DNA of 58,154 bases from Aeromicrobium sp. (GTDB lineage: Bacteria; Actinomycetota; Actinomycetes; Propionibacteriales; Nocardioidaceae). Location: contig JAOPXO010000059.1 of the NCBI GenBank assembly GCA_025965115.1, positions 1 to 58,154 of the forward strand, read 5' to 3'. This document shows, one piece after another, positions 25,765 to 44,906 of the stretch. Position 1 is the first letter of the stretch. Each line of letters starts with the position of its first letter. Made by a program: the position numbers and the translations under genes. The notes below the pieces were generated by a model. It searched no databases. It was not told the origin of the DNA and saw only the letters and a list, made by a program, of their open reading frames with translations.

Positions 25765-28497
<2,733 letters not shown>

Positions 28498-28557: not shown

Positions 28558-28568
28558 TACCAATCAGG
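28525..28568. repeat. Perfect inverted repeat, 18-bp arms and 8-base loop
   Basis: Arms 28525-28542 (starting CCTGATTGGTATG) and 28551-28568 are exact complements around TCTTTGGG. The right arm runs into the ribosome binding site AGGAGG (28566-28571) of the SRPBCC gene. In a transcript reading through from katG it would form a very stable hairpin, possibly ending katG transcription or hiding the SD. Transcripts from the promoter above would start inside the repeat and escape it. Confidence 0.85.
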
Positions 28569-28578
28569 AGGAACCGCC

Positions 28579-29031: not shown

Positions 29032-29349
29032 ATGACCGCCCTCGCCGAGACCGAGGTGTTCAGCGCGCTCGGCGATCCGACACGGTGGCAGGTCCTGGTC
29101 GCGCTCGCCGAGCGTGGCGAGGGCTCGGCCACCGTGCTGGCGCGCGAGCTGCCGGTGAGCAGGCCGGCGGTGATCAAGCACCTCTTGGTGCTCGATCGCG
29201 TCGGACTCGTGGGGTCTCGGAAGGTTGGCCGCGAAGTGCTCTACTCGCCGCGTACCGAACGCCTCGAAGCCACCGCCCGCCGGATGGCCGAACTCGCCCG
29301 CGCCTGGGACACCCGACTGGCAGCCCTCAAGAAGCTGGCCGAGGGCTGA
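29032..29349 (+). CDS. ArsR-family repressor
   Basis: A 105-residue winged-helix regulator. The recognition region is ATVLARELPVSRPAVIKHLLVLDRVGLV with the wing SRKVGREVLYSP. No cysteine metal site (CxC) is seen, so it probably senses something other than arsenic, such as a hydrophobic ligand or the state of its SRPBCC partner. Its ATG abuts the SRPBCC stop. It presumably binds the direct-repeat sites upstream of the operon. Confidence 0.87.
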   Translation: MTALAETEVFSALGDPTRWQVLVALAERGEGSATVLARELPVSRPAVIKHLLVLDRVGLVGSRKVGREVLYSPRTERLEATARRMAELARAWDTRLAALKKLAEG

Positions 29350-29352
29350 GGC

Positions 29353-29366
29353 GGGACGTTCGTCCT
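29353..29366. promoter_or_regulatory. DevR-type box upstream of adhP
   Basis: GGGAC-GTTC-GTCCT matches the GGGAC-N4-GTCCC pattern with one mismatch. Its centre is 82 bases before the alcohol dehydrogenase start, the same distance range as the other boxes of this island. Confidence 0.6.
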
Positions 29367-29415
29367 GCCACCTCCCGCCCTTCGACGGTGCCCATCGAGT
29401 CGACGCCGAGCAACG

Positions 29416-29443
29416 ATGGCGGTCTACTCAAGGAGACCGCCAT
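29416..29443 (+). repeat. Hairpin covering the adhP start codon
   Basis: A perfect 10-bp stem, ATGGCGGTCT / AGACCGCCAT, closes an 8-base loop ACTCAAGG. The loop holds most of the SD AAGGAG (29430-29435), and the stem takes in the first two bases of the ATG at 29442. In RNA this would restrict initiation; as DNA it could be an operator. Confidence 0.6.
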
Positions 29444-30452
29444 GAAGGCAGCCGTCGTCACTGATTTCGCCGCACCGCTGGAGATCCAGGAGCGCGACAT
29501 CCCCAAGCCCGCACGAGGGCAGGTGCTCGTACGCATGGAAGCGTGCGGCCTCTGCCACACCGACATCCATGCGGCGCATGGTGACTGGCCGGCCAAGCCC
29601 ACACTGCCGTTCGTCCCGGGCCACGAGGGCATCGGGATCGTGACAGAACTCGGCGCCGGCGTCACTGAGCACCAGGTCGGCGACCGGGTCGCGATCGCCT
29701 GGCTCGGCAGCGCGTGCGGCCACTGTCGCTACTGCATCGATGGGCGCGAGACGCTGTGCCAGGGTCAGCAGAACAGCGGGTATTCGGTCGATGGCGCATT
29801 TGCCGAGTTCGCCGTCGCCGATGCACGGTTCACGGTCGCCGTGCCTGCCAGTATCGAATCCCTCGACGCTGCCGCGTTGACCTGCGCGGGCGTGACCTCA
29901 TACAAAGCCGTCAAGGTCGCCGGGATTGCACCGGCCGAGACGGTCGCGGTCTTCGGAATCGGCGGACTTGGCCACCTGGCAGTGCAGTACGCGCGGCTGG
30001 TCGGTGCCACTGTCATCGCGATAGACATCGACGCCGACAAGCTCGAGCTCGCCACCTCGCTCGGCGCGGACCACGTGGTCAACGCACTCGAGGTGGATCC
30101 GATCGAGGCGATCAGGGAACTGGGCGGCGCGGATGTGTCACTTGCCTTCGCGGTGACGCCGAAGGCGTTCCAGCAGGCCTTCGCCTCGCTGAATCCGGGC
30201 GGCCGACTGGTCTGCGTGGCGATGCCGCCGGAGGGAACCATGAGTATCCCGATCTTCGACACCGTCATCAAGGGCCTGAAGATCATCGGTTCGATCGTGG
30301 GTACGCGTCAGGACCTGGCTGAGGTCTTCGAGCTGCACGCCAGTGGGCGTACGCGTGTGGTCGCCGAGGGCCGCAAGCTCGATGAGGTCAACCAGGCGAT
30401 GAGCGAGGTGCTCTCCGGCGAAGCGTTGGCCCGTCTCGTCTTCGAGTTCTGA
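29442..30452 (+). CDS. adhP: Zinc-dependent alcohol dehydrogenase
   Basis: A 336-residue medium-chain alcohol dehydrogenase, AdhP-like. Catalytic zinc ligands are in ACGLCHTDIH and GHEGIG; the structural zinc has four cysteines in CGHCRYCIDGRETLC. The NAD-binding loop is GIGGLGHLAVQYA (about residues 170-182) and IDIDADKLELA suggests NAD preference. It likely reduces acetaldehyde to ethanol, or the reverse, helping dispose of NADH when oxygen is low. It begins the hypoxia-like island, with a DevR-type box and a start-codon hairpin upstream. Confidence 0.93.
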   Translation: MKAAVVTDFAAPLEIQERDIPKPARGQVLVRMEACGLCHTDIHAAHGDWPAKPTLPFVPGHEGIGIVTELGAGVTEHQVGDRVAIAWLGSACGHCRYCIDGRETLCQGQQNSGYSVDGAFAEFAVADARFTVAVPASIESLDAAALTCAGVTSYKAVKVAGIAPAETVAVFGIGGLGHLAVQYARLVGATVIAIDIDADKLELATSLGADHVVNALEVDPIEAIRELGGADVSLAFAVTPKAFQQAFASLNPGGRLVCVAMPPEGTMSIPIFDTVIKGLKIIGSIVGTRQDLAEVFELHASGRTRVVAEGRKLDEVNQAMSEVLSGEALARLVFEF

Positions 30453-30476
30453 CCTGCGGGACCGCCAAGGAGTGTC

Positions 30477-30490
30477 GGGACCTTCGACCC
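30477..30490. promoter_or_regulatory. DevR-type box upstream of devR
   Basis: GGGAC-CTTC-GACCC fits the shared pattern with one mismatch. A further half-site GGGACC (30458-30463) lies 19 bp before it. The centre is 94 bases before the devR start, so autoregulation is likely. Confidence 0.65.
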
Positions 30491-30577
30491 TCGACACCCC
30501 GTGAGCAGCGCTTGATACTGACAAGGTCGGCCTGCCATGTGCGCTCACCAGGTCGGCCCACAACATGAGGAGTTCCG

Positions 30578-31219
30578 GTGACGATTCGCGTGTTCCTGCT
30601 CGATGATCACGAGCTGGTCCGTATGGGACTTCGCAAGCTGCTCGAGAGCGGTGGCGACATCGAGGTCGTCGGTGAAGCGGGCACCGCTGCGTCGGCGATC
30701 GCGCGCATACCGGCACTCAAGCCCGATGTGGCGATCCTCGACGCGAGGCTCCCTGATGGGAGCGGCATTGAGGTATGTCGTCAGATACGCTCCGCTGAGC
30801 CGGCGACCAAGGCGATCATCCTCACCTCTTTTGACGATGACGAGGCGTTGTTCGCGGCGATCATGGCCGGAGCTGCGGGTTACATCCTCAAGCAGGTCAC
30901 CAGCCAGGACCTGCTGGCGGCGGTACGCCACGTGTCGGCCGGCGGTTCCCTGCTCGATCCGAGCGTGACCGAGCGGGTCATGCAGCGGTTGCGCGATGGC
31001 GGTCCTGGCGAGCCTGAGGAACTCAAGGGGCTGAGTGCCCAGGAGCGTCGCATTCTCGAGCTGGTCGCCGAGGGATTGACCAACAAGCAGATCGGCGAGC
31101 GGCTGTTCCTCGCCGAAAAGACGGTGAAGAACTACATGTCGAACGTCCTGTCCAAGCTCGGCCTCACCAGTCGCACACAGGCTGCGGTGTTTGCGACCCG
31201 GCTCGTGGGCGGACCCTGA
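30578..31219 (+). CDS. devR: DevR/DosR-like response regulator
   Basis: A 213-residue NarL-family regulator most similar in build to mycobacterial DevR (DosR): a receiver domain with the acidic pair LDD (9-10), phospho-acceptor Asp55 in AILDARLPDGSG and GYILKQV, then a linker and a LuxR helix-turn-helix (LSAQERRILELVAEGLTNKQIG to KTVKNYMSNVLSKL). DosR switches on the hypoxia/NO dormancy regulon in Mycobacterium. GTG 30578 follows AGGAG. Boxes with the DosR-box layout precede it and its neighbours. It lies tail to tail with the sensor kinase. Confidence 0.9.
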   Translation: MTIRVFLLDDHELVRMGLRKLLESGGDIEVVGEAGTAASAIARIPALKPDVAILDARLPDGSGIEVCRQIRSAEPATKAIILTSFDDDEALFAAIMAGAAGYILKQVTSQDLLAAVRHVSAGGSLLDPSVTERVMQRLRDGGPGEPEELKGLSAQERRILELVAEGLTNKQIGERLFLAEKTVKNYMSNVLSKLGLTSRTQAAVFATRLVGGP

Positions 31220-31220
31220 C

Positions 31221-32915
31221 TCAGACCGGGACGGTCCAGACGACCTGAGTTCCGCCGCCTGTGCCCTGATGGATGTTGAATGATCCGCCATGCGAGATTG
31301 CCCGCGAGCGAAGATTGGCGAGGCCGCTGAGTCGTGGACTCTTGCCCGGGCCGTCACCGTCGTCGGTGACGTCGACCGTGACATGCCCGGCGGCGGCCGT
31401 GATCGTGACCTCCACCTTGGAGGCATTGGCGTGGCGCACCGTATTGGCCAACGCCTCGGTCACGACCGCGGTGACGTCATCGGTCAGCGAGGCGTCAGCC
31501 ATCAGGTCGACGGGCCCGAGGAATGTCACCCGAGGTCGCACCCCCTGCTCGTCCTCGATCCGATCGACCACTTCGAGCACCCGGGCTCGCAGGCTCACGG
31601 AGGTGACGTCGCCGGCCTGGTGGAGCGCGAAGATGCTCTGCCTGATCTGGGCGATCGCGCCATCGATCTCGGTGATCTGCTCGACGATGCGTTTTGCAGC
31701 TTCCGGGTCGAGTCCGGCGGCGGCGGCCTGGAGGCTGAGACCGGTCGCGAACAGTCGCTGGATGACGTGATCGTGGAGATCGCGCGCGATTCGGCTGCGG
31801 TCCTCGAGCAGGGCCACTCTGCGGCGGATCATGCGTGCTTCGGCCCGGTCGATCGCGACGCTGATGTGGCTTGCGAACGACGTGCCCATGTCGAGGTCGC
31901 GGGTGTCGAAATCGGAGCGATCGAGGTGCCGCACCAGGCCAAGGACTCCGGCATTGCCCTCGCCGAGCGTGAACGGGATGACCAAAGCGTTGCCGAACTT
32001 GGGTTGCTCACTGAAGCCGAGGTCCTCGAGAACAGCGCCACGGGGGAGGTTGACGGGCTTGCCAGTGCGAATCGCCTGGCCGGCGATGCTTTCGTCCATC
32101 GCGAACGACATGGCGGTCAGCTCGGTCGCTCCGGAGCCGGCGGCGCGATCGATGACCAGGAAGTCTCGTTGCGGGGTGACGAGGCCGATGTAGACGAGAT
32201 CGGCCTCGGCCAGCTCCTTGACCCGGTCGACAAGGAAGCCGAGGTGCTCGTCGTCTTCGTCCTGCATCAGGCGGCGCGCCGTCTCGGCGAGCGCCGACGC
32301 CCATCGTTCACGGTATATCGAGTCCTCGAAGAGACGGGCGTTGGCGATCGCGATGCCGGCTGTCGCTGCGAGTGCCTGGGCCAGCTCCTCGTCATCGGCG
32401 GAGAACTCGCCATTCTTGCTGTCGGTGAGATAGAGATTGCCGTAGACCGCATCTCGTACGCGGATCGGCACACCGAGGAAGCTCTTCATCGGCGGGTGAT
32501 TGGCGGGGAATCCGCTCGAGCGCTCATCGTCGCCGATCGTCGCCAGGCGTACGGGGCTCGGGTCCGCGATCAGCACGCCGAGCAGACCCTTGCCCTCTGG
32601 CAGGTGCCCGATCCTGGCGATGTCCGCGTCATCGATTCCGACCGTGATGAACTGCTCAAGGGTCTGATCGTCGGCGATGACACCCATCGCGCCGTAGCGC
32701 GCTTCGATCAGCTCGGTGCCGATCTCGACGATGCGGCGAAGAACGGTCGCGAGGTCGAGGTTGCTCGTGAGGTCGTTGTTGACCCTGATCAGATCGCGAA
32801 GTCGGCTCTGTGAATGCACCATCTCGTCGGCTCGTTCGACCAGGTGGGCCAGGAGCGTTTCGAACTCGAGCTTGGGTCCGGGCGCCGCCGCACGTGCTGG
32901 TGCGTGGTGTGGCAT
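31221..32915 (-). CDS. devS: DevS/DosT-like GAF sensor histidine kinase
   Basis: A 564-residue soluble kinase with two GAF domains (about residues 55-195 and 220-365) and a HisKA_3/HATPase_c module with phospho-histidine H381 in ARDLHDHVIQ. GAF-A contains FPANHPPMKSFLGVPIRVRD; His140 in it corresponds in context to the region that carries the heme-ligand His in DevS/DosT, so a gas- or redox-sensing heme is likely. The ATPase part shows NTVRHANASKV and DDGDGPG. ATG 32915 follows AGGAG. One base separates its stop from that of devR; it is divergent from usp. Confidence 0.88.
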   Translation of the reverse strand: MPHHAPARAAAPGPKLEFETLLAHLVERADEMVHSQSRLRDLIRVNNDLTSNLDLATVLRRIVEIGTELIEARYGAMGVIADDQTLEQFITVGIDDADIARIGHLPEGKGLLGVLIADPSPVRLATIGDDERSSGFPANHPPMKSFLGVPIRVRDAVYGNLYLTDSKNGEFSADDEELAQALAATAGIAIANARLFEDSIYRERWASALAETARRLMQDEDDEHLGFLVDRVKELAEADLVYIGLVTPQRDFLVIDRAAGSGATELTAMSFAMDESIAGQAIRTGKPVNLPRGAVLEDLGFSEQPKFGNALVIPFTLGEGNAGVLGLVRHLDRSDFDTRDLDMGTSFASHISVAIDRAEARMIRRRVALLEDRSRIARDLHDHVIQRLFATGLSLQAAAAGLDPEAAKRIVEQITEIDGAIAQIRQSIFALHQAGDVTSVSLRARVLEVVDRIEDEQGVRPRVTFLGPVDLMADASLTDDVTAVVTEALANTVRHANASKVEVTITAAAGHVTVDVTDDGDGPGKSPRLSGLANLRSRAISHGGSFNIHQGTGGGTQVVWTVPV

Positions 32916-32993
32916 GTCACTCCTGGACGAGCCTTGAGGATGACTTCACCCTACGCGCAGTGTCGGTCACGCCCCTCGTCCGAGATCGGTGCG

Positions 32994-33007
32994 GGGACCT
33001 AGGTCCC
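32994..33007. promoter_or_regulatory. DevR-type box between devS and usp
   Basis: GGGACCTAGGTCCC is a perfect 14-bp palindrome and the best match to the shared pattern. It is 90 bases from the usp ATG and 85 from the devS ATG, so it may act on both divergent genes. Confidence 0.75.
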
Positions 33008-33090
33008 TCTGGGAGTGGCCCTCAGGCGGTGTTGCCACAACGTCCGGGCGCCGATGCTGGTAGCAGAACATCACGCCAGAGGAGAAGACC

Positions 33091-33951
33091 ATGAACACAG
33101 CGTCGCGTCCCGTCGTCGTCGGAGTCTCGAGCAAGCAGGGCACCGTCGTGAGGTATGCCCTCGCCGAGGCCGCGCGCCTGAAGACGAGCCTCCGCGTCGT
33201 GCACTGCTACGCGCTGCCGATACAGGCGGCCGAGTTCTATGTCGGCGGCGATGTTCTCGACTCGATGCGGTTGTCCGGCGAGGAAGTGATCGAAGAGGTC
33301 CAGGCGATCATCGAGGCGGAGTCGCCCGAGATCGAGGTCGCGTACGTCCTGGCCAATGGCATGCCGGGAGCCGTGCTCCTCGCCGAGTCCGCCACCGCGC
33401 AGTCGATCGTCATGGGTGCCGACGACATCCCCTGGTTCGACCGCATGCTGGGCGGGGAGATCTCCGGTCATCTGGCGCGCAAGGCGTCCTGCCCCGTCGT
33501 CGTGGTGCCTGAAGTTGATCAGCGCGGTGCTGGCCAGCCCGGCGTCCGACACGGTGGCGTCGTCGTCACGATCGACGGCGACACCTCTGCGTCGAGCCCG
33601 CTGCGCTACGGCTTCGAGCAGGCCGACATCCGCGGAGAGATCTTGCACGTACTGCACGCGGCACCGGCCGCCACGCTGCAGGATGACTTCGACAACCGCC
33701 GCGCCAATGTCGCCGAGATACTTGCCGGCTGGGCCGAGCTGTATCCCGATGTGCGGGTCCTGTCGTCACTGACATCGGGGGATCCGATCGAGACCTGCGT
33801 CGCGGCCACCGAGCACGCATCGCTCGTCGTGATCGGCCGGCCGCACAGCCACACGGTGTTGTTTGCGCTCGCTCGGCCATTGGCCATGCAAGTGCTGCGC
33901 CGGGCACATTGCCCAGTCGCTGTTGTCGCCTCTGACTATCGCGGCGCCTAG
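33091..33951 (+). CDS. Universal stress protein with two USP domains
   Basis: A 286-residue tandem USP. Domain 1 (residues about 5-140) contains VVVGVSSKQGTVVRYALAEA and QSIVMGADDIPWFDRMLGGEISGHLARKASCPVVVV; domain 2 (about 150-285) ends VVIGRPHSHTVLFALARPLAMQVLRRAHCPVAVV. The ATP-loop glycines are partly replaced in domain 2. Tandem USPs of this size are typical DosR-regulon members in mycobacteria. ATG 33091 follows GAGGAGAAG. The upstream palindrome suggests DevR activation. Confidence 0.93.
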   Translation: MNTASRPVVVGVSSKQGTVVRYALAEAARLKTSLRVVHCYALPIQAAEFYVGGDVLDSMRLSGEEVIEEVQAIIEAESPEIEVAYVLANGMPGAVLLAESATAQSIVMGADDIPWFDRMLGGEISGHLARKASCPVVVVPEVDQRGAGQPGVRHGGVVVTIDGDTSASSPLRYGFEQADIRGEILHVLHAAPAATLQDDFDNRRANVAEILAGWAELYPDVRVLSSLTSGDPIETCVAATEHASLVVIGRPHSHTVLFALARPLAMQVLRRAHCPVAVVASDYRGA

Positions 33952-34067
33952 TTCGCTTGGCGCCTTCGTGTGATCCACGTGTGGACCGGGAGTTTCGCCC
34001 GAAGGATCACGGATGTCCGCTCCTCCAGCGCCACACGCTGACGCTCGAGGAGCGGGCCACATCCCGC

Positions 34068-34081
34068 GGGACCTTTGCCAC
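34068..34081. promoter_or_regulatory. DevR-type box upstream of the phosphoketolase gene
   Basis: GGGAC-CTTT-GCCAC matches the pattern with two mismatches and follows a CCCGCGGG palindrome. The centre lies 72 bases before the xfp ATG. The 195-base gap 33952-34146 holds no gene; a weaker GGGAG-type sequence sits at 33988. Confidence 0.5.
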
Positions 34082-34146
34082 TGCCTTCTCTGACGGCGCG
34101 ATGACACGCTGATCATCAGGACGATTCGACTACTACGGGGCCACAC

Positions 34147-36525
34147 ATGACGAACACCACGGAAGCATCCGACCGTACGCTCGAGGCGCACGAGCTCGCG
34201 CTGATCGATGCGTACTGGCGAGCGGCGAACTATCTGTCGGTGGGGCAGATCTACCTGATGGACAATCCGCTGCTGCGTGAACCGCTCCTCGCCGAGCACG
34301 TCAAACCACGCCTGCTCGGGCACTGGGGCACGACGCCGGGACTCAACCTGCTCTACGTGCACATGAACCGGGTCATCAAGGCGCGTGACCTCAATGTCGT
34401 GTACATCGCCGGACCCGGCCACGGTGGGCCCGGATTGGTGGCGAATGCCTATCTCGACCGTACGTACACCGAGGTCTATCCCTCCGTGGCGGAGGACGAG
34501 GATGGCATCCGCGCACTCTTCCGTCAGTTCTCGTTCCCTGGCGGGATTCCCAGCCACGTCGCGCCCGAGACGCCGGGTTCGATCCACGAGGGTGGTGAGC
34601 TGGGCTATGCGCTCGTGCATGCGTACGGCGCAGCGTTCGACAACCCCGATCTGCTGGTCATGTGCGTCATCGGCGACGGCGAGGCCGAGACCGGACCGCT
34701 TGCCGCGAGCTGGCACTCCAACAAGTTCCTCGACCCGGCCAAGGACGGCGCCGTTTTGCCGGTCCTGCACCTCAATGGCTACAAGATCGCCAATCCCACG
34801 GTCCTGGCCCGCATCCCCGAAGCCGAGCTGGCTGATCTGCTGCGCGGCTATGGTCACGACCCGATCTTCGTCAGCGGTGACAACCCCGAAGATGTCCACG
34901 AGCAGCTCGCGACCGCGCTGGATCGCTGCCTGGACCTGATCGCCTCGATCCAGATCGAGGCGCGCAATGGCATCTCGTCTGAGCGTGCCCGCTGGCCGAT
35001 GATCGTGCTGCGTACGCCCAAGGGCTGGACCGGGCCGAAGGTCGTCGACGGGCTCCAGGTCGAGGGCACCTGGCGTGCGCATCAGGTGCCGCTGTCGGAG
35101 ACGCGTACGAACGCGGAACACCGGACGCTGCTCGAGGCATGGCTGCGGAGCTACCGCCCGGAGGAGCTCTTCGACTCCAGGGGCCGGCTCATACCCGAGC
35201 TGCAGGCCCTCACCCCGGTCGGGGATAGACGTATGAGTGCCAACCCGCACGCCAACGGCGGCCGGCTCATGCGCGACCTGGTGATGCCGGACTTCCGCGA
35301 CTTCGCCGTGACCGTCGAACATCCCGCCGTCGCCACGAGCGAGGCGACGCGCGTGCTCGGCGACTTCCTGGCCGGCATCATCGCCAAGAATCCGGACAGC
35401 TTCCGATTGATGGGACCCGACGAGACGGCATCGAACAGGTTGTCCGGTGTGTTCGCCGAGACCGACCGGGCCTGGGACGCGATCACGCTCCCTGGCGACG
35501 ACCACCTGGCCCCGGACGGCCGGGTCATGGAGGTCCTCTCGGAGCACCTCTGCCAGGGCTGGCTCGAGGGCTATCTGCTCACCGGTCGCCATGGGTTGTT
35601 CAATTGCTACGAGGCGTTCATCCACATCGTCGACTCGATGTTCAACCAGCACGCCAAATGGCTCAAGTCGACCCGCCGCATCCCGTGGCGTGCGCCGATC
35701 GCCTCGCTCAACTACCTGCTGTCATCACACGTCTGGCGACAGGACAACAACGGGTTCTCACACCAGGACCCCGGCTTCCTCGACCACGTCGTCAACAAGA
35801 AGGCGGAGGTCGTACGCGTCTATCTCCCGCCGGACACCAATACGCTGCTCTCGGTCGCCGACCACTGCCTGCGAAGCCACAACTACGTCAATGTCATCGT
35901 TGCAGGCAAGCAGCCGGCGCTGACATACCTCACGGTCGACGAGGCGATCGCGCACTGCACCCGCGGGCTCGGCATCTGGCCGTGGGCGAGCAGTGGCGAG
36001 AGCGAGCCCGACGTGGTGCTCGCCTGCTGCGGAGACATCCCCACGCTCGAGGCGATTGCGGCCGCCGACCTGCTGCGGATGCATCTGCCCGAACTCAAGG
36101 TGCGGTTCATCAATGTCGTCGACCTGATGCGGCTCGAGCCCGAGACAGAGCATCCTCATGGGCTGTCCGACCGCGACTTCGACGCGCTGTTCACCACCGA
36201 CAAGCCAGTCGTGTTCGCCTTCCACGGCTATCCGTCGCTGATCCACCGGCTGACCTATCGTCGTACCAATCACCACAACATGCATGTGCGCGGCTACAAG
36301 GAGGAGGGGACGACCACGACCCCGTTCGACATGGTCATGCTCAATGACCTCGATCGCTTCCACCTCGTGATGGATGTCATCGACCGCGTGCCGTCCTTGG
36401 GTTCGCGCGCGGCAACGCTGCGACAGGAGATGTCCGACGCCAGACTGGCCGCGCGGGCATACACGCGGGAGCACGGGGAGGACGACCCGGCGATTGCGGG
36501 ATGGACCTGGCCCGGACGGGAGTGA
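34147..36525 (+). CDS. xfp: Xylulose-5-phosphate/fructose-6-phosphate phosphoketolase
   Basis: A 792-residue thiamin-diphosphate phosphoketolase, full length for the family. Signature parts are [28 protein letters not shown], the ThDP/Mg motif [21 protein letters not shown] and, in the C-terminal half, [25 protein letters not shown]. It splits xylulose-5-P (or fructose-6-P) with phosphate to glyceraldehyde-3-P (or erythrose-4-P) and acetyl phosphate. Together with the acetate kinase after it, it gives ATP without oxygen. The DevR-type box upstream ties it to the island. Confidence 0.97.
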
Positions 36526-36528
36526 TTG

Positions 36529-37626
36529 ATGCGGATCCTCGTCGTTAATGCGGGTTCGTCGAGCCTCAAGCTCAGCCTGCTCGACGGTGCTGACGTCCTC
36601 GAGCACTCGGTGAATCTGGCTGCGGGTGATGCGCCGCTCGACACGGATGCGCTCGCTGAGGCCGTGCGGGGGTGGTCGACGCCCGATGTCGTCGCCCACC
36701 GCGTCGTGCACGGCGGCAACCTGTTCACCGGCGCGACCCGCATCGAGGGGCAGGTGCGCGATCAACTCCAGGAGCTGACCGATCTGGCGCCGCTGCACCA
36801 GCCGAAGTCTCTCGCCGGAATTGACGCGGTCACCAACCTGCTTCCCGATGTGCCGGCCGTAGCGTGCTTCGACACCGCATTCCACACGTCGATCCCCGCG
36901 GCCGCGTCGACCTATGCCGTTCCGGAGGAGTGGCGTCGGCGCTGGGCGATCAAGCGCTATGGATTCCACGGGCTCTCGCATGCATACGCCTCTCGCCGCG
37001 CGGCTGAGCTCGTTGACCGACCCGTCGAGGAGCTCAGGATCGTCACCTGCCACCTGGGCGCGGGTGCCTCGCTGTGTGCGGTGGTCGGCGGCCAGAGCAT
37101 CGACACGACGATGGGCTTCACCCCGCTTGAGGGCCTGGTGATGGCCACTCGTTCGGGGACCGTCGACCCGGGCCTCGTCCTGTGGCTCGAGGAGCATGAG
37201 CACCTGGCGCCGCACGAAGTGGCTCAGGCGCTCGAGCACCGCTCGGGCCTCGCCGCACTCGCGGGCACCAGCGACATGAGAGAAATCCAGGCTCGGGCTG
37301 GCAAGGGCGATGCCGATGCGAGCCTTGCTTTGGACGTTTTCATCCACAGCCTCGCTGCCCACGTTGCGGCCATGACGGCTTCGACGGCCGGCCTCGATGT
37401 GCTGGTCTTCACCGGCGGGGTCGGGGAGAATTCCGCGGTCGTACGGCGCCGTGCGGCTGAGCGGCTGACCTTCCTCGGCGTCGACATCGACGACGAGCTC
37501 AACGACAGCGGGCCGGTCGATCTGGAAGTGACAGCAGACGGCGCGTTGGTTCGTGCGGTGGTTGTCGCGGCCCGCGAAGACCTTCAGATGTCGCGCGAGA
37601 CACGGTTGCTCGTCGACGCCGATTGA
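36529..37626 (+). CDS. ackA: Acetate kinase
   Basis: A 365-residue acetate kinase of the ASKHA fold. Motifs are LVVNAGSSSLKLSLL at the start, ACFDTAFHTS, KRYGFHGLSHAY, LGAGASLCAV and FTGGVGENSAVVR. It converts acetyl phosphate made by phosphoketolase plus ADP into acetate and ATP. I chose ATG 36529 (GGGAG seven bases before); TTG 36526 directly after the phosphoketolase stop is the alternative. The xfp-ackA pair is one operon. Confidence 0.95.
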   Translation: MRILVVNAGSSSLKLSLLDGADVLEHSVNLAAGDAPLDTDALAEAVRGWSTPDVVAHRVVHGGNLFTGATRIEGQVRDQLQELTDLAPLHQPKSLAGIDAVTNLLPDVPAVACFDTAFHTSIPAAASTYAVPEEWRRRWAIKRYGFHGLSHAYASRRAAELVDRPVEELRIVTCHLGAGASLCAVVGGQSIDTTMGFTPLEGLVMATRSGTVDPGLVLWLEEHEHLAPHEVAQALEHRSGLAALAGTSDMREIQARAGKGDADASLALDVFIHSLAAHVAAMTASTAGLDVLVFTGGVGENSAVVRRRAAERLTFLGVDIDDELNDSGPVDLEVTADGALVRAVVVAAREDLQMSRETRLLVDAD

Positions 37627-37630
37627 GTCG

Positions 37631-38068
37631 TCAGTGACTCGAGACCCGACGTCCCTCCATCGAGCGCGGGTCGAGGCGGATGACCACGCCACGCTCGCCG
37701 CCGGCCCATGGGTGGAGCCGCGACCACGACATGACCTGTTCATGGACTACCGGATCTGTGACGCGGAACGTCGAGCCCTTGACCGTGACATTCCAGCCGT
37801 CGCGGTAGTGCGGGGCGTGGTAGTCGACGCCGAAAACGACTTCGTCGACGCCGTCGGCGAGATCGTTCAAGATGCTGTCGGTCGACGTACGGAAGAAGAT
37901 GTAGCCGTCGATGACGGCGAAGTTCAACGGGATCAGCTGGAGCCCGTCGTCGTTCACGAAGGCTACCCGCCCCACAGTCGTGGACTCGAGCAGATCACGG
38001 CATTCCGCATGGGGAATCACCGTGAGATGGCTATCTCGCTGGTTGTCGTTCATGTGATCAACGGTCAT
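37631..38068 (-). CDS. Pyridoxamine 5'-phosphate oxidase-fold protein
   Basis: A 145-residue split-barrel flavin/F420-binding-type protein. ECRDLLESTTVGRVAFVNDDGLQLIPLNFAVIDGYIFF is the family core. Such small proteins bind FMN or F420; small flavin- or F420-binding members occur in the mycobacterial DosR regulon. ATG 38068 follows AGGAG. It is the last gene of the cydABDC operon, 25 bases after cydC, and ends 4 bases from the convergent ackA. Cofactor and substrate unknown. Confidence 0.87.
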   Translation of the reverse strand: MTVDHMNDNQRDSHLTVIPHAECRDLLESTTVGRVAFVNDDGLQLIPLNFAVIDGYIFFRTSTDSILNDLADGVDEVVFGVDYHAPHYRDGWNVTVKGSTFRVTDPVVHEQVMSWSRLHPWAGGERGVVIRLDPRSMEGRRVSSH

Positions 38069-38093
38069 GGTGCTCTCCTTGTGGTTGCGGTGG

Positions 38094-39710
38094 TCACGCG
38101 TGTGACATCTCGGGATGGATCGCGCTGTCGGTGGCTCCGTCGGCGTGCAGCTGCAGAACTCGATCGCACCGGTCGAGCACGTGAGGCGAGTGCGAGATGA
38201 CCAGCACCGCGTGATCGTCGGCGAGCAGTCGTATGTCGTCGAGAAGGGCCTCGGCGGCCGGCTGGTCGAGGTGCTCGGTCGGCTCGTCAAAGATCAGGAC
38301 GGCGTGCTTGGCCAGGATCAATCGGGCGAGTCCCAATCGCTGACGTTCGCCGCCGCTGAGGCGGCCACCTCGCTCACCAACGGGTGTGTCGAGGCCACGT
38401 GGGAGGGCGCGTACGAACCCACCGAGTCCGGCTCGATCGAGGACCGCGCCCATCGAGTCGTCGTCGGCCCGTGGATCGGCAATCCGGAGGTTCTCGCGGA
38501 TCGTGGTGTCGAACAGGACGTCGTCCTGGCTCGAGATGCCGATACGGGTGCGGATGTCGGTCCCGTCGAGGTCGGTCAGATTGACGCCGCCCAAACGTAC
38601 GCGACCGGCTTTTGACCCGATGAGTCCAACCAGGGTCATGGCCAAGGTGCTCTTGCCGGCTCCGCTGGGGCCGCCGACACCGATCAGGTCGCCCCGCACG
38701 AGTCGGAACGAGATGTCATGGGCGATCGTGCGATCCCAGCCGATCGCGAGATCCTCGACCAGGAGCGTGGTGGAGGCAGGCAGCCGGCGCGGTGAAGCCG
38801 GACGCGCGACTGGAGCCGGCGCAGTGGACAACTCGTCGAGGCGTGCTCGGGCAGCGACGACGGCAGGGCGTAGGCGCTCGCACTCGGCCAGCGACTCGAG
38901 CGGTTCAAGCAGGGCGACCGGCGCCAACAGGAGAACGCCGGTGACCACAGCTGGCACGTCTGAGCCGAGGAGCCCGAGAGCCGCCACGGTGATGCCCGTG
39001 GAGGCGAGGACGAAGGCCGAGCCAAGTCCGCCGATCCACGCATTTGCCCGTTGCACGGCGGCGAGCTCGCGGAAGGAGGCATCCATCGTCCGACCGACGT
39101 CGCGTGCGGCTCCGTACGCAATCAGGTCACGGGAGGCGAGCACCAGGAGCGACGCGTCGGCGGCCACGGCACCGTGGAGAGCGGAGGCGTTCCGTCGCCG
39201 GTCTGGCGACATGCGCGCGACCACAAGTCGTACGAAGGTGGCACACGCCAGCACATGGAGTGCGACGAACACGGCTGCGATCGGGGAGATGAAGGCCAGC
39301 AGCACGATGACGCATGCGGAGGACACCATCGCGTAGATCCATGGCAGGCGGATACGGAGCAACCGGTCCTGGGCCGTGTCGACATCGGCGACGATCCGAC
39401 TGACGATGTCGCCGCGTCGTTGCCGGGGCAGTCCTGTGGGGGCGACCCGGTCGAGCTGCTGATAGGTGCTCACCCGCTCCTCGACCGTCAACGACAAGGC
39501 GGCGTCGTGGGTCAGGAGCCGCTCGGCGTAGCGGAAGACCGCCCTACCGAGTCCGAAGAAGCGCACCGAGACGATCGCGACCATGAGGTAGAGCACGGGA
39601 GGATGCTCAGCGGCACGCACGATCAGCCAGGCGGAGGTGAGGAGCAGGCCGGCCGAGCAGAGCTGGGCGAGGATGCCGAGCCCGGCGCCTGCGACCAGTC
39701 GGCGGGTCAT
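38094..39710 (-). CDS. cydC: ABC transporter subunit CydC
   Basis: A 538-residue half-transporter: six membrane helices (about residues 1-290) and an ATPase domain with Walker A GPSGAGKSTL, Q-loop region, signature LSGGERQRLGLARL and Walker B VLIFDEPTEHLD. With CydD it forms the heterodimer needed for cytochrome bd assembly (heme or thiol handling across the membrane). Its ATG overlaps the cydD stop (ATGA). The extra C-terminal tail (AIHPEMSHA) is short. Confidence 0.93.
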   Translation of the reverse strand: MTRRLVAGAGLGILAQLCSAGLLLTSAWLIVRAAEHPPVLYLMVAIVSVRFFGLGRAVFRYAERLLTHDAALSLTVEERVSTYQQLDRVAPTGLPRQRRGDIVSRIVADVDTAQDRLLRIRLPWIYAMVSSACVIVLLAFISPIAAVFVALHVLACATFVRLVVARMSPDRRRNASALHGAVAADASLLVLASRDLIAYGAARDVGRTMDASFRELAAVQRANAWIGGLGSAFVLASTGITVAALGLLGSDVPAVVTGVLLLAPVALLEPLESLAECERLRPAVVAARARLDELSTAPAPVARPASPRRLPASTTLLVEDLAIGWDRTIAHDISFRLVRGDLIGVGGPSGAGKSTLAMTLVGLIGSKAGRVRLGGVNLTDLDGTDIRTRIGISSQDDVLFDTTIRENLRIADPRADDDSMGAVLDRAGLGGFVRALPRGLDTPVGERGGRLSGGERQRLGLARLILAKHAVLIFDEPTEHLDQPAAEALLDDIRLLADDHAVLVISHSPHVLDRCDRVLQLHADGATDSAIHPEMSHA

Positions 39711-41326
39711 GCGGCCACCACCGTGCTGGCTGTCAGGCGCAGGACCCGGTCGGCTGCTGCGATGATCTCGGGTCGATGTGCCACGACGATGACAGTGACC
39801 GGCAGTGCACGCAGGGCATTGAGCACGTCGCCCTCACGGGTCGCATCGAGGCCGGCGGTCGGCTCGTCGAGCAGCATCAGCGCGGCGCCCTCGGTGCGCA
39901 CGCGCAGGAGTGCGCGTGCGATGGCGATCCTGCGGCGTTCACCTGCGGAGATGTCGTCGGCTGACTCGCTCAGCCAGCGGCGGGGATCCAGGTCTGCGGC
40001 ACCGACCTCGCGGAGAGCCGCTGACACCTGTGCGGGAGTCGCGTCGTTGTTGGCCATACGTACGTTGTCGGCGACCGTGCCCTCGATCAGGCCGGGGAAC
40101 TGTGGCACCCAGGCGATCTGCCGCCGCCAGAGCTCCGGATCGATCGCGCAGAGGTCGACGGTCCCCACGGTGACTCGGCCACGGGTCGGTGCGACGAATC
40201 CGAGCAGCACGTCGAGGAGGGTCGACTTGCCGGAGCCAGAGGGACCGGTCACCGCGACGAACTCGCCGGGTCGGATGGTCTCGGCGTCCAGCCGCAGAGC
40301 CGGCGCCGAACGGTCGTCGTGCTCAACCACGAGAGATTCGATGATGAGGTCGACCCGTGCGATGTCCGGTGAGCTGGCCCAGCCGGCATGCCGATCGTGG
40401 TCGAGCAGCTCGAAGGCATCGCCGACGGCTTCGGCCCCCGCCGTGCTGTCGTGGAACATCATGCCGAGCTGACGCACGGGTAGGTATGCCTCGGGTGCCA
40501 GCAGCAGCACGATCAGCGCACGCTGCAGCGTCATGTCGTCGTCGACGACCCGCAGACCAACGCTCACCGCGACCAGTGCGACCGACAAGGTCGCGACCAG
40601 CTCGAGCACGAGCGAGGACAGGAATGCGACCCGGAGCGCACGGACGGTCTCGCGCCGGTGTCGGTCACCGACCTCGCGCAGACCGCGCTCCTGGCGTCGG
40701 CCGAAGATCTTCAGGACGACGAGACCATCGAGCACGTCCGCGAAATGGCGTCCGAGCCGCTCCAGCGACTGCCACCGCTTGTCGAGGGTGTCGCGGGTGA
40801 CGAGTCCGATCAGCACCATGAACACGATGCTCAGAGGCAGGGTGATGCCGACGATGAGCCCTGACAGCGGATCGACGACCAGCACAGCACCGATCACCAG
40901 CACGGGCACGATCGAGGCGAGCACGAACTGCGGAAGGAACCGGCCGACATACCCGTCGAAGGAGTCGAGACCCGGGCCGAGGAGCGTGATGACTCGCGAG
41001 CTACTGGGCGCCGGGCCCTGTCGTCGCGGGTCGAGCAGATCGTTGACGATCTCGCCCCGGAGCTCCGACTTGACCGCGACGGCCGAGCGGGATGCCACGA
41101 CCTCATGCGCCCAGCGCAGTGCCGCCCGCAATCCGAAGCAGGCGACCACGGCAAGGATCGGGCCGACAACGGATTGGGAGTGGAACAGGCGCCCGACCGA
41201 TACCGCGATCAGGACGGCCTGGGCGACGATTGCGACCGTCGTGACCAGCCCGATTGCCACGCCGACCACCAGGTAGCGGCGTACTGCCCGCGACCTTCTG
41301 ATCAGCCGTGGATCGAGCGGCTTCAT
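39707..41326 (-). CDS. cydD: ABC transporter subunit CydD
   Basis: A 539-residue half-transporter, partner of CydC. It has N-terminal membrane helices (VVGVAIGLVTTVAIVAQAVLIAVSVGRLF first), Walker A GPSGSGKSTL, a degenerate signature ISAGERRRIAIARAL instead of LSGGE, and Walker B ALMLLDEPTAGLD. One normal and one altered signature is common in asymmetric ABC pairs. ATG 41326 overlaps the cydB stop; a longer upstream frame would overlap cydB and lacks support. Confidence 0.92.
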   Translation of the reverse strand: MKPLDPRLIRRSRAVRRYLVVGVAIGLVTTVAIVAQAVLIAVSVGRLFHSQSVVGPILAVVACFGLRAALRWAHEVVASRSAVAVKSELRGEIVNDLLDPRRQGPAPSSSRVITLLGPGLDSFDGYVGRFLPQFVLASIVPVLVIGAVLVVDPLSGLIVGITLPLSIVFMVLIGLVTRDTLDKRWQSLERLGRHFADVLDGLVVLKIFGRRQERGLREVGDRHRRETVRALRVAFLSSLVLELVATLSVALVAVSVGLRVVDDDMTLQRALIVLLLAPEAYLPVRQLGMMFHDSTAGAEAVGDAFELLDHDRHAGWASSPDIARVDLIIESLVVEHDDRSAPALRLDAETIRPGEFVAVTGPSGSGKSTLLDVLLGFVAPTRGRVTVGTVDLCAIDPELWRRQIAWVPQFPGLIEGTVADNVRMANNDATPAQVSAALREVGAADLDPRRWLSESADDISAGERRRIAIARALLRVRTEGAALMLLDEPTAGLDATREGDVLNALRALPVTVIVVAHRPEIIAAADRVLRLTASTVVAA

Positions 41327-42333
41327 TTGGTCAGGACATCCATCGGTATGTGCTGGACGCCGATCCGCTTGCGGAAGACCCAATAGGACCAGCTCTGGTA
41401 CATCAGCACGATCGGGGTGAAGATCACCGCGACCCACGACATGATCACCAGCGTGTAGTGGGTGGATGACGCATTGTGGGTCGTGAGGTTCCAAGCCGCA
41501 TCGAGCGACGACGGCATGACGTCGGGGAACAACCCCGTGAAAAGCATGATCGCCACGAGCCCGATGGTCAGCGACGTCGCGGTGAACGCGACGCCCTCGC
41601 GGCCTCGGAAGATCGCGACGATCGCCCCGACGAAGGCACCGGCGGCGAGCAGGCCCAGCAGCCACACGGCGAGCTTGCCCTGGTCGAAGCCGGTCCAGAC
41701 GATGAAGGCGACGGCGAGGACCGCCGCAAGTGCGCCGACCTTGAGAGCGAGGATCCGGGCCCGTTTGCGGATGTCTCCGACGGTCTTGAGCGCCACGAAC
41801 ATCGAGCCGTGCACGATGAAGACGGTGAGGGTCACGAGCCCGCCGAGCAGGGCGTATGGATTGAGCAGCGTGAAGAAGCTGCCGACGTACTCCTTGTGGC
41901 TGTCGATCGGGACACCGTGGACGATGTTCGCGAGGGCAACCCCCCAGAGCAGTGCCGGCACCGTCGACCCGACGATGATCGCCGCGTCCCAGCGGCGACG
42001 CCACATCGCCTCGGGACGCTTGCCGCGGAACTCCAGCCCGACTCCGCGGACGATCAACGCCATGAGAATGAGGAACAGCGGCAGGTAGAACCCGCTGAAC
42101 AACGTGGCGTACCACTCCGGGAAGGCTGCGAAGGTCGCACCGCCCGCGACGAGAAGCCAGACCTCGTTGCCGTCCCACAGCGGACCGATCGTGTTGATCA
42201 GGACGCGGCGCTCGGTGTCATTGCGAGCCAGCAGGCCGATCAGCATGCCGACTCCGAAGTCGAAGCCTTCGAGCACGAGGTAGCCGACCCACAGGACGGC
42301 GATCAGGATGAACCAGAAGGTGGTGAGTTCCAT
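41323..42333 (-). CDS. cydB: Cytochrome bd ubiquinol/menaquinol oxidase subunit II
   Basis: A 336-residue membrane subunit with about eight to nine helices. FWFILIAVLWVGYLVLEGFDFGVGML at the start and GPLWDGNEVWLLVAGGATFAAFPEWYATLFSGFY are the hallmark of CydB. It stabilises the heme-bearing CydA. It lies 13 bases after cydA and overlaps cydD by 4 bases. Confidence 0.96.
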   Translation of the reverse strand: MELTTFWFILIAVLWVGYLVLEGFDFGVGMLIGLLARNDTERRVLINTIGPLWDGNEVWLLVAGGATFAAFPEWYATLFSGFYLPLFLILMALIVRGVGLEFRGKRPEAMWRRRWDAAIIVGSTVPALLWGVALANIVHGVPIDSHKEYVGSFFTLLNPYALLGGLVTLTVFIVHGSMFVALKTVGDIRKRARILALKVGALAAVLAVAFIVWTGFDQGKLAVWLLGLLAAGAFVGAIVAIFRGREGVAFTATSLTIGLVAIMLFTGLFPDVMPSSLDAAWNLTTHNASSTHYTLVIMSWVAVIFTPIVLMYQSWSYWVFRKRIGVQHIPMDVLTK

Positions 42334-42346
42334 GATCAGATTCCGA

Positions 42347-43747
42347 TCAGTAGGCGAACGCGAGTGGCGCGTCGGAGTCGTCGGAGGGAACGGTGGTGTC
42401 GACCTCGGGGAGGCCGGCCTGGATGTACTTCAGCAGGAGCTTGACCTCGACGACTGCGAGGACGCCGTAGAGCGCGGTGAAGCCGATCAGTGAGGTCAGC
42501 ACCTCAGCCGCTGTGGTGCCGGGGGAGACCCCGGCCGCCGTGGGCATCAGCCCGAACACCGCCCAGGGTTGGCGACCCATCTCGGTGAAGATCCAGCCGA
42601 ATGACATGCCCACCAGCGGCAACAATGGCAGGGCGAGCGCCGTGCGGAGCATCCACTTCGAGGTGGGCATGCGCTGTCGCCTGGTGGACCACAGCATCCA
42701 CGCCCCGCCGGCCATCGCCAGGAAGCCGACCGTGATCATGGCGCGGAACGTCCAGTACGTGATCGGGATGTTGGGGGAGTAGTCGCCGGGTCCGTACTTC
42801 TGCTCGTACTCAGACTGCAGGGCGTTGATGCCCTTGACCTGACCGTTGACAGATCCGGTGCCGAGGTATGACAGCAGGCGCGGGACCTCGAGCTTGTAGA
42901 CCGACTTCGAGCCGTCGAGCGTGCCGATCGTCAGCAATGAGAAGGGCGCCGGTTGCTTGGTCTCGTAGAGTCCCTCGGCGGCTGCCATCTTCATGGGCTG
43001 CACCTCGGTCATGACCTTGCCCTGGCTGTCGCCGGTGACGACGGTGGCGAGTCCGGCGATGATCAGGGTCGCGCCTCCGAGCCGCAAGGCGGTGAGGAAT
43101 GCTTCGGCGTCGCGGGCTGGGTGGCGTACGAGGTGCCACATCGCGATGCCGGCGACGAAGGCCCCGCCCACCATGAAGCAGGACGCGATCGTGTGCGGGA
43201 ACGTCACCAGCGCGACCTTGTTGGTCAGCACTGCTCCGAAGTCGGTGAGCTCGGCGCGGTTCTTGGCGGCATTGAACGTGTAGCCGACCGGGTGCTGCAT
43301 GAAGGAGTTGGCGGCCAGGATGAAGTACGCCGAGAGCAGGGTGCCCACCGCGGCGATCCAGATCGTCGCGAGGTGCACGCCAGGCTTGAGCCGGTCCCAG
43401 CCGAAGATCCAGAGGCCCAGGAATGTCGACTCGAGGAAGAAGGCGAGCAGGCCCTCGATCGCCAGAGGCGCACCGAAGATGTCACCGACGAAGCGGGAGT
43501 AGTCGCTCCAGTTCATGCCGAACTGGAACTCCTGCACGATCCCGGTCGCGACACCCATTGCGAAGTTGATCAGGAAGAGCTTGCCGAAGAATTTCGTCAG
43601 CTTGAGGTACTTTTCCTTCTTGGTCCGCCACCATGCGGTCTGCAGGCCGGCGACCAGGAACGACAGTCCGATCGTGACCGGCACGAAGAAGAAGTGGTAA
43701 ACGGTGGTGATGCCGAACTGCCACCTGGCAATGTCCAGTGCGTCCAT
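42347..43747 (-). CDS. cydA: Cytochrome bd oxidase subunit I
   Basis: A 466-residue heme subunit of the high-affinity quinol:O2 oxidase. Visible features are WQFGITTVYHFFFVP (His near residue 19, a heme b ligand), LAFFLESTFLGLWIFGW (conserved Glu), and GRQPWAV of the quinol-binding region. The length fits the short Q-loop type of Gram-positive bacteria. ATG 43747 follows AGGGGA; a longer start would add unrelated sequence. It heads cydABDC-PPOX and is divergent from the DoxX-like gene across two DevR-type boxes, so induction by low oxygen is likely. Confidence 0.96.
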   Translation of the reverse strand: MDALDIARWQFGITTVYHFFFVPVTIGLSFLVAGLQTAWWRTKKEKYLKLTKFFGKLFLINFAMGVATGIVQEFQFGMNWSDYSRFVGDIFGAPLAIEGLLAFFLESTFLGLWIFGWDRLKPGVHLATIWIAAVGTLLSAYFILAANSFMQHPVGYTFNAAKNRAELTDFGAVLTNKVALVTFPHTIASCFMVGGAFVAGIAMWHLVRHPARDAEAFLTALRLGGATLIIAGLATVVTGDSQGKVMTEVQPMKMAAAEGLYETKQPAPFSLLTIGTLDGSKSVYKLEVPRLLSYLGTGSVNGQVKGINALQSEYEQKYGPGDYSPNIPITYWTFRAMITVGFLAMAGGAWMLWSTRRQRMPTSKWMLRTALALPLLPLVGMSFGWIFTEMGRQPWAVFGLMPTAAGVSPGTTAAEVLTSLIGFTALYGVLAVVEVKLLLKYIQAGLPEVDTTVPSDDSDAPLAFAY

Positions 43748-43854
43748 GCGGTCTGTCCCCTCAGCGCGCGATGACCGCAGGTTCGGTCTGGATTCGCCCC
43801 ACCAGACTCGCGGATCAGAGAGCGCGGTCACACCGCCGTAAAGCACGATCCCGC

Positions 43855-43903
43855 GGGACCTTGGTCCCCCGAATCGGCACGCTGGGGGCCGGACCTTTGG
43901 CCC
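43855..43903. promoter_or_regulatory. Two DevR-type boxes between cydA and the DoxX-like gene
   Basis: GGGACCTTGGTCCC (43855-43868) has perfect 6-bp arms; CGGACCTTTGGCCC (43890-43903) is a second copy with two mismatches, 35 bp apart. They lie in the 240-base divergent region, 91 bases before the DoxX-like ATG (second box) and 114 before the cydA ATG (first box). Nothing else was seen in this gap. Confidence 0.7.
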
Positions 43904-43987
43904 TCTGGATCACATCCAAGGACCCTGCTGCGCGGCTGGCGATGCGGCGATGCTCGAGGTAACGAACAACCGACTGAGGAGACCATC

Positions 43988-44530
43988 ATGACCGCCACTG
44001 TTACAGCTGGCCGTATCGCCGCTCGACCTGTCACCGCCGAACGGGCGACCCCACTCCAGTACGTCATCGGAGTGACCCGCCTGGCCCTGGGCTGGACCTT
44101 CCTGTGGCCCTTCCTCGACAAGATGTTCGGCCTCGGACACGAGACCGCGTCGGCCGATGCCTGGATCCACGGAGGCAGCCCGACGTCCGGATTCCTCGGT
44201 CACGGCACCGCCGGCCCGTTCGCCAGCTTCTACCAGGGCATGGCCGGACACGCGGTGTTCGACTGGCTCTTCATGCTCGGTCTGCTCGGCATCGGTGTCG
44301 CCCTGATCGCGGGAGTGGCCGTACGACTCGCCGCCGCCGCGGGTGCCCTGCTCCTCGTACTCATGTGGTCCGCAGTCCTGCCTCCGGCGAACAACCCGTT
44401 CATGGATGAGCACCTCATCTATGCGCTGACCCTCGGAGTGCTGGCCCTCGCCGGCGCCGGTCATACGCTCGGCCTCGCCTCCACCTGGGAGAACCTGCCG
44501 ATCGTCAAGCGCCTGCCGTTCCTGCGCTGA
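43988..44530 (+). CDS. DoxX-like membrane protein
   Basis: A 180-residue protein with four membrane segments (about 27-47, 90-112, 115-137, 142-162). VTRLALGWTFLWPFLDKMFGLG is a DoxX/DoxD-like start, and a conserved polar loop (HETASADAWIHGG) follows. DoxD-type proteins transfer electrons to quinones in some organisms; most are uncharacterised. ATG 43988 follows GAGGAGA. It shares DevR-type boxes with cydA and ends at a strong terminator, so it is probably a hypoxia-induced single gene. Confidence 0.8.
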   Translation: MTATVTAGRIAARPVTAERATPLQYVIGVTRLALGWTFLWPFLDKMFGLGHETASADAWIHGGSPTSGFLGHGTAGPFASFYQGMAGHAVFDWLFMLGLLGIGVALIAGVAVRLAAAAGALLLVLMWSAVLPPANNPFMDEHLIYALTLGVLALAGAGHTLGLASTWENLPIVKRLPFLR

Positions 44531-44763: not shown

Positions 44764-44906
44764 ACAGCGGCATAGTTCCAGATAACTAGATTCGCCCAAA
44801 CCGCTTGACGCGGCCCGAATCTGCCGCCAGAGTGATCTCGCTCTCACTCCCATCTACAGCAGGAGCGCGCCAAGGGGGGCTGCTGTCGTCCCCGAAGGGT
44901 TCCCGT

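Follow-up and report, generated by a model that had tools for sequence, protein, structure and literature searches.

A probable DevR/OsdR-type low-oxygen regulon of Aeromicrobium with promoter boxes before its cytochrome bd and phosphoketolase genes

We analyzed a 58,154-nucleotide stretch of DNA from Aeromicrobium sp. (contig JAOPXO010000059.1 of GCA_025965115.1; hereafter the window), which is contig C187 of an assembly of 3.03 Mb in 293 contigs that is 88% complete. Within about 15 kb of it, here called the island, genes for a DevR-type response regulator, a DevS-type sensor kinase, a universal stress protein, an alcohol dehydrogenase, phosphoketolase and cytochrome bd lie together with copies of a box of the form GGGAC-N4-GTCCC. 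A preliminary description of this DNA had placed six such boxes, at 29353, 30477, 32994, 34068, 43855 and 43890, before named genes, and all six are present there, at the distances from starts that it gave and with 1, 1, 0, 2, 0 and 2 mismatches in order of position. It had also named the genes of the island, and profiles agree with those identities for AdhP, the NarL/LuxR regulator, Usp, Xfp, AckA, PPOX, CydC, CydB and CydA.

On the plus strand, the first box (GGGACGTTCGTCCT, 29353-29366, one mismatch) is centered 82.5 bases before the ATG start of adhP, which encodes a zinc alcohol dehydrogenase (29442-30452; NCBIfam AdhP above cut-off), and the second (GGGACCTTCGACCC, 30477-30490, one mismatch) is centered 94.5 bases before devR (30578-31219), a NarL/LuxR-type response regulator gene of the DosR kind by profile and solved-structure match. 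Convergent with devR lies devS (31221-32915, minus strand), which encodes a GAF-GAF-HisKA_3-HATPase sensor kinase. The preliminary description had overlooked that devS, on the minus strand, is served by the box before usp (33091-33951, plus strand; two universal stress protein domains by domain profiles): this palindromic, perfect box (GGGACCTAGGTCCC, 32994-33007, no mismatch) serves the two as a divergent pair, with its center 85.5 bases before devS and 90.5 before usp. A weak box (GGGACCTTTGCCAC, 34068-34081, two mismatches) is centered 72.5 bases before the phosphoketolase gene xfp (34147-36525, plus strand), followed by ackA for a short acetate kinase of 366 amino acids (36526-37626, plus strand), both named by family profiles. 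The Pfam and NCBIfam profiles align to AckA only from profile positions 84 and 89, yet the protein opens MMRILVVNAGSSSLKL, and a stretch near the N-terminus seems to be missing.

The rest of the island is mostly on the minus strand and comprises genes for a PPOX-type flavin protein (37631-38065, by profile, start uncertain), cydC (38094-39710; NCBIfam TIGR02868 above cut-off), cydD (39707-41308, start uncertain), cydB (41323-42333; family profiles) and cydA (42347-43747). We named cydD from its ABC membrane and ATPase domains together with the gene order cydA-B-D-C, which relatives keep. The cydA open reading frame (ORF) opens at 43846, but its likely start is 43747, since close CydA matches in relatives start at query residues 15-35, mostly 26-35. 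Given this start, the center of the box GGGACCTTGGTCCC (43855-43868, no mismatch) lies 114.5 bases upstream of cydA. A second, weaker box (CGGACCTTTGGCCC, 43890-43903, two mismatches) shares the intergenic region, and on its far side, at a center-to-start distance of 91.5 bases, begins a gene for a DoxX-like membrane protein (43988-44530, plus strand); its Pfam DoxX match, at 20.5 bits, falls below the cut-off of 23.6.

The best named matches of DevR are from Aeromicrobium (metagenome-assembled genome RYN_187, 92%; strain Root472D3, 90%), and its best solved match is Mycobacterium tuberculosis DevR (3c3w; E value 1.2e-67 over 207 residues), with which it shares an identical recognition stretch, LAEKTVKNY. 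For the GAF-A domain of DevS, the best matches are haem GAF structures of DosS and DosT, and both H140, the His preceding PPM, and Y162, the Tyr in LYLT, are kept; by alignment with DosS and DosT, we take His140 to be the haem ligand and Tyr162 the distal tyrosine. DevS is probably a haem GAF sensor kinase. Eleven of the twelve DevS proteins compared contain the GFPxxHPPM stretch. The twelfth, from the related genome G012 (L189/L190; 50% identical), lacks both the His of that stretch and the LYLT Tyr, and may sense a different signal. The convergent devS-devR order is common in Streptomyces, Isoptericola and other devR loci, and the usp gene adjoins the regulator pair, as expected for a DevR, DosR or OsdR locus.

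The preliminary description had proposed a test of the bare core for enrichment. With up to two mismatches, GGGAC-N4-GTCCC occurs 46 times in the window, compared with a mean of 66.8 in shuffled sequence, and 99 of 100 shuffles reached at least 46. Because this count is no higher than chance, the bare core at two mismatches is uninformative. Counts are also given for a fuller motif, GGGACCTTNGTCCC. It was first noticed in this same window, which makes counts from the window and assembly alone partly circular; the tests in relatives are free of this circularity. Allowing one mismatch, it occurs at 3 places in the window (60 shuffles: mean 0.05, largest 1), and with at most two at 8 places, all inside the island (60 shuffles: mean 1.47, largest 5), six of them in promoters and two within genes, at 37156 (ackA) and 43152 (cydA). 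Across the whole assembly (76 rows, a place found on both strands being counted once), 3 of 7 places at one mismatch lie in the 15-kb island (binomial 4e-6), as do 8 of 71 at two mismatches, compared with 0.36 expected by length. Exact copies of GGGACCTTGGTCCC were also seen elsewhere in this assembly, one at L141:10777-10790, which follows a gene by 4 bases and precedes by 96 the ORF of a secreted, repeat-bearing protein, and the other at L140:4322-4335, before the likely start of a gene resembling glyA by eye; the genes at these two boxes are possible further members of the regulon.

In whole genomes of relatives, the share of places with at most one mismatch that falls in the cluster is 3/8 in G041, 4/9 in G024, 4/13 in G023 and 3/6 in G021. 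A fifth place in G024, at 1187555, lies before the doxX-like gene at its aroA locus. In the fragmentary assemblies, 2 of 6 such places are on the devR contig in G003, 3 of 8 in G015 and 1 of 3 in G013; in G039, one of two is located before cydA, and in G012 none of 12 is within 10 kb of devR. To compare called genes, we used 13 stretches of relatives, excluding the window and dropping genes with fewer than 200 bases available upstream (their number is unrecorded). At a limit of one mismatch, 24 of 51 island genes are boxed, compared with 5 of 272 other genes (Fisher 1.5e-17); at a limit of two, the figures are 32 of 51 and 22 of 272. These counts are not independent, since divergent neighbors share boxes and the stretches are related. 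A reversed-pattern control gave 0 of 51 and 1 of 272 at one mismatch. By gene, the boxed shares at one mismatch are 6/11 for devS, 5/10 for devR, 5/13 for usp, 3/5 for adhP, 2/5 for the doxX-like gene, 0/3 for xfp and 3/4 for cydA, all based on the longest ORF with some starts misplaced; cydA of the same genomes reaches 4/4 in a dedicated test. For instance, adhP has a one-mismatch box in G015, G021, G023 and G049 and a two-mismatch box in G013, and adhP of Root472D3 (locus L060) has none within two mismatches. The devR box has the same 14 letters in G041 and Root472D3 (L062), the devS-usp intergenic box has identical letters in G041, xfp is preceded by GGGACCTTTGCCGC in G015 and GGGCCGTTGGTCCC in G041, and the box pair between cydA and the doxX-like gene is also found in G041, 39 bases apart. 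The earlier claim that regulator, sensor and a shared box form one physical unit is supported, and related species carry the box in front of the same genes.

The cytochrome bd genes allowed boxed and box-less relatives to be compared within a single family. CydA matches are found in 39 of 41 genomes of the genus; four of these (G021, G022, G040, G049) have only a distant form at about 31-32% identity, and G016 has, besides the distant form, only fragments of a close one. A long match of at least 69% was found in 34 genomes; we scanned 300 bases upstream of cydA in 25 of these, the other nine lying outside the test. Each of the five most similar cydA genes (those of the window, G039, G041, G023 and G024) carries a box within one mismatch, and none of the remaining 20 (69-77% identity) has one, even at two mismatches. 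The five boxed genes form one clade (98/95; tree of 16 rows). In four of the five boxed genomes cydA lies 8-21 kb from devR, and in G039 the two are on separate contigs, so that proximity is not readable there; in the box-less G012, G043 and G048 (DevR 72-73%), cydA lies 0.54-0.70 Mb from devR. Box and devR linkage of cydA therefore co-occur, which is what one would predict for a functional box and for an operon that entered the regulon when it moved. With clades chosen, here and below, after trees or identities had been seen, a single clade of the five genomes is rejected by core-gene data (p-AU, approximately unbiased test, 0.00014). A probable reason is that G023 falls with G021, G049 and G040 (100/99), genomes that lack a close cydA; a clade of the window, G024, G039, G041, G023, G049, G021 and G040 is not rejected (p-AU 0.178). 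The cydA contrast also bears on whether the boxes are chance similarities in a G+C-rich genome, chosen after the fact. Such a reading could appeal to the bare core, which is not over-represented at two mismatches, and to the choice of motif in this same window, but the pattern was replicated with the window excluded and the cydA family served as a control, with 5/5 boxed in the island lineage and 0/20 in the others examined, and we regard chance as highly improbable.

Among 80 named devR loci, the 200 bases upstream of the gene contain a box with at most one mismatch at 8, compared with 3 of 800 control stretches. Of these 8 loci, six are from outside Aeromicrobium, namely a Propionibacteriales metagenome-assembled genome, Phytohabitans, Nocardioides, an Acidimicrobiaceae metagenome-assembled genome, Acrocarpospora and Streptomyces, and the looser form GGGNC-N4-GNCCC occurs at 27 of 80 loci and in 17 of 800 control stretches. 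A de novo dyad search before the 80 devR genes ranked other words (such as CAGTAT/ATACTG) first, with GGG-N8-CCC at z 11.9 (37/80 vs. 69/800), so de novo discovery alone would not single out the box across orders. Genome-wide totals compared with the reversed pattern likewise fail to separate genomes with a close DevR from those without; these totals being uninformative, position relative to genes was used as evidence, not counts.

Pairings of devR with the metabolic genes of the island recur as well. Few genomes of the genus encode Xfp (7 of 41, one being fragmentary). At 2 of the 80 named loci, those of Lentzea nigeriaca (L099) and Streptomyces varsoviensis (L107), xfp and devR are about 7 kb apart, with the box-like palindromes GGGACCTGAGTCCC (L099:16986-16999) and, by the looser form, GGGCCGAAGGGCCC (L107:17385-17398) before xfp. 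It is also found near devR in G033, from another family. At one of the 80 loci, in Streptomyces palmae (L111:1-5862), the distance between devR and matches to cydA and cydB is about 3 kb, and GGGCCGTTCGGCCC occurs at 3531 and 5056. These few cases hint that devR pairs repeatedly with xfp and with cyd, and that genera besides Aeromicrobium can have cyd next to devR.

We consider it likely that the locus is a DevR/OsdR-type dormancy (low-oxygen) regulon. We infer that DevR is the box binder and an activator and that oxygen is the signal, and, from the named families, which metabolic roles the members have. In such a regulon, DevS would register falling oxygen (or nitric oxide, carbon monoxide or redox state) and phosphorylate DevR, which would then bind GGGACCTTNGTCCC-like palindromes about 70-115 bases before genes. 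The targets activated by phosphorylated DevR would be devR itself, devS with usp (through their common box), adhP, xfp-ackA, and cydABDC(-PPOX) with the divergently placed doxX-like gene. Cytochrome bd, as a high-affinity quinol oxidase with the CydDC exporter, would consume the last oxygen, phosphoketolase and acetate kinase would supply ATP without respiration, alcohol dehydrogenase would discharge NADH, and the universal stress protein would serve stasis.

Several observations weigh against this reading. Two of the window boxes (34068 and 43890) are weak, no box within two mismatches lies near xfp in G039, G023 or G013, and at 72 of the 80 named loci a scan of the 200 bases upstream of devR found none within one mismatch. 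The bounds of the clusters counted in G041, G024, G023 and G021 were set partly by boxes, so that P values from them flatter and are a guide only. Genomes with only a 56-66% DevR relative also exceed the reversed control (G019 18 vs. 5, G018 10 vs. 0, G014 8 vs. 1; rows, both strands), an excess that may reflect coding bias or further DevR-like regulators. Upstream of a second DevR-like gene of G023, 63% identical, a one-mismatch box (GGGACCTAAGTCCC, G023:C7:2846578-2846591) lies 262 bases from the match; the motif therefore does not belong to the island DevR alone, and two DevR-type regulators may share sites in that genome. In Mycobacterium smegmatis, according to the accessible text of PMC7739888, cydAB is not among the 49 DevR regulon genes, and a devR mutant induces cydA much as the wild type does (data not shown there); control of cyd is therefore not simply transferable from mycobacteria.

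Some of these points would fit binding of the boxes by another NarL/LuxR-type regulator, besides or instead of the island DevR. The assembly contains 26 DevR matches at an E value of at most 0.001, DevR itself included, with one in the window at 10212-10838, and both the excess of motifs in genomes with a distant DevR and the boxed 63% gene of G023 point the same way. However, the next-best DevR relative in the assembly is only about 43% identical, the boxes cluster around devR and precede devR in several species, and LAEKTVKNY is the same as in M. tuberculosis DevR, so we consider another binder rather improbable.

The proposed dormancy regulon resembles known systems in part. With mycobacterial DevRS/DosRST it shares the DevR and DevS families and the core of the DosR box, and presumably also the placing of a usp gene next to the regulator (Rv3134c-devR-devS); it differs in that devS is convergent with devR. 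Mycobacterial DosR targets are scattered. The preliminary description had set the island apart from this arrangement, and the shared unit does stand, but clustering as such is already published for osdR of Streptomyces coelicolor, where, in the accessible part of the report, eight sites control 20 of 22 genes between SCO0198 and SCO0219 (PMC5069765). The same part states that OsdR bound those predicted sites tried by electrophoretic mobility shift assay, and its Table 1 places many of them 50-102 bases before starts, with which the 70-115 bases predicted here agree. As far as that text goes, the OsdKR locus is alike in regulator and sensor type, in the palindromes before most operons of the neighborhood, and in clustering usp, alcohol dehydrogenase, PPOX-type (SCO0214) and osdR genes (PMC5069765). 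On the same basis, it has nitrate reductase with a transporter, pyruvate phosphate dikinase, several usp genes and the consensus AGGGCCGATCGGCCCT, whereas the island has cydABDC, xfp-ackA, the DoxX-like gene and the consensus GGGACCTTNGTCCC; no nitrate reductase was found among the window genes scanned.

The cluster sits in a variable stretch of the window between conserved blocks, with genes at about 15-18.7 kb (from 5 kb in G041) and 49-57.7 kb, and about 10 kb from aroA. At the same place, G024 has AHSA1, ArsR, usp, PPOX, a box and the doxX-like gene, with its devRS and cyd about 1.1 Mb off, and the aroA-side 40 kb of G041, G023, G012, G049 and G021 (the far block of G021 lying beyond the stretch) contains no devRS, the cluster being elsewhere. 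Another site is common to G041, G021 and G049 and a third to G012 and G013, so the cluster occupies three or more chromosomal sites within the genus. Its layout changes too: G041 reads xfp-ackA, box, devR, devS, box, usp, PPOX, cydCDBA, box pair and doxX-like gene, which is the window set minus adhP with xfp-ackA on the opposite side and a weak box before xfp, and G023 spreads the whole window set over about 34 kb with more genes interspersed. In the comparison of synteny that the preliminary description had proposed, boxed genes recur while order, content and site vary.

Clusters of relatives (ten representatives scanned) also hold arginine deiminase, ornithine carbamoyltransferase, an amino-acid kinase family protein, which by context is carbamate kinase, and an amino-acid permease, as well as a CoA hydrolase/transferase, a flavodoxin-like protein and further Usp. 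Genes of this arginine-to-ATP route lie at L185:11252-16128, L177:4913-10845, L189:10123-18168 and L267:9418-16762, some with a P-type cation ATPase; no convincing box was found for the arginine deiminase genes of relatives except a two-mismatch site in G012.

The island had been described as possibly movable, and the differences in place and order among Aeromicrobium species agree with this, as does disagreement between the DevRS and core-gene trees. The DevRS tree groups G003 with the window, G039 and G015 (100/100), and the DevRS data reject G003, G012, G043 and G048 as one clade (p-AU 8.5e-37), whereas the core-gene tree places G003 with G012, G043, G048, G008, G047 and G052 (100/100). Marks of a mobile element were not seen: no integrase, transposase or recombinase was found among the 50 window ORFs scanned with Pfam (mostly the larger ones), no transfer RNA was found in the window, the longest exact flank repeats are 13 bases direct and 14 inverted, with 50 shuffles reaching 14, and G+C content is 0.661 both inside and outside the island, with no step. 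That regulator, boxes and targets travel jointly between Aeromicrobium species as a horizontally moving genomic island would account for the position between conserved blocks near aroA, the relatives without devRS there, the shared alternative sites and the placement of G003. Besides the missing marks, however, the core data are compatible with vertical descent of cydA, and loss of paralogues could mimic transfer, hidden paralogy being possible in view of the two devR genes about 21 kb apart in Root472D3, and the clades were named post hoc. We judge a moving island unlikely, if worth keeping in view; vertical descent with rearrangement and loss is a plausible alternative, and the data neither establish nor reject horizontal transfer.

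A literature search, mostly without subscription papers, returned no report of this locus in Aeromicrobium and, among the titles listed, no dormancy locus with cydABDC or xfp, and the accessible part of PMC3388012 contains nothing on dormancy clusters outside mycobacteria. Clustering, and the content of usp, alcohol dehydrogenase, PPOX-type and regulator genes, is already known; new, as far as we searched, are the inclusion of cydABDC and xfp-ackA among the boxed genes and the occurrence of such a cluster at three or more chromosomal sites within a single genus.

The window has other features besides the island. Genes for an AHSA1 protein (28546-29031) and, directly beside the adhP box, an ArsR-like protein (by eye; 29032-29349) lie to its left, as does, just outside, a peroxidase-family gene (26113-28497), catalase-peroxidase-like by size and with no box within two mismatches. 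At 9049-10874 there is a second pair of a HisKA_3 kinase and a NarL-type regulator, the latter 43% identical to DevR. To the right, ORFs at 44805-46832 (675 amino acids) and 47008-48243 (411 amino acids) have a secreted look and no Pfam match at 0.01; from its motifs, we take the second to resemble a sedolisin-type protease. No Rfam match at gathering scores was found in the window.

We tentatively propose, at somewhat less than even confidence, that the regulon grows by physical capture. The cyd operon of one lineage would have moved once from a box-less place to the neighborhood of DevR and gained a box there, and ATP-making modules would be interchangeable (xfp-ackA here; arginine deiminase or CoA-transferase in relatives), with regulator and boxes kept while content, order and place change. 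Related cydABDC operons within a single genus, with a box in the island lineage and none in the rest of those examined, amount to a natural experiment on a regulon gaining members, and make it testable whether dormancy clusters spread or are assembled as units. If the regulon works as proposed, cytochrome bd, which is outside DevR control in M. smegmatis, would be placed in a DevR-type regulon of bacteria that can be studied more easily and more safely than tubercle bacilli.

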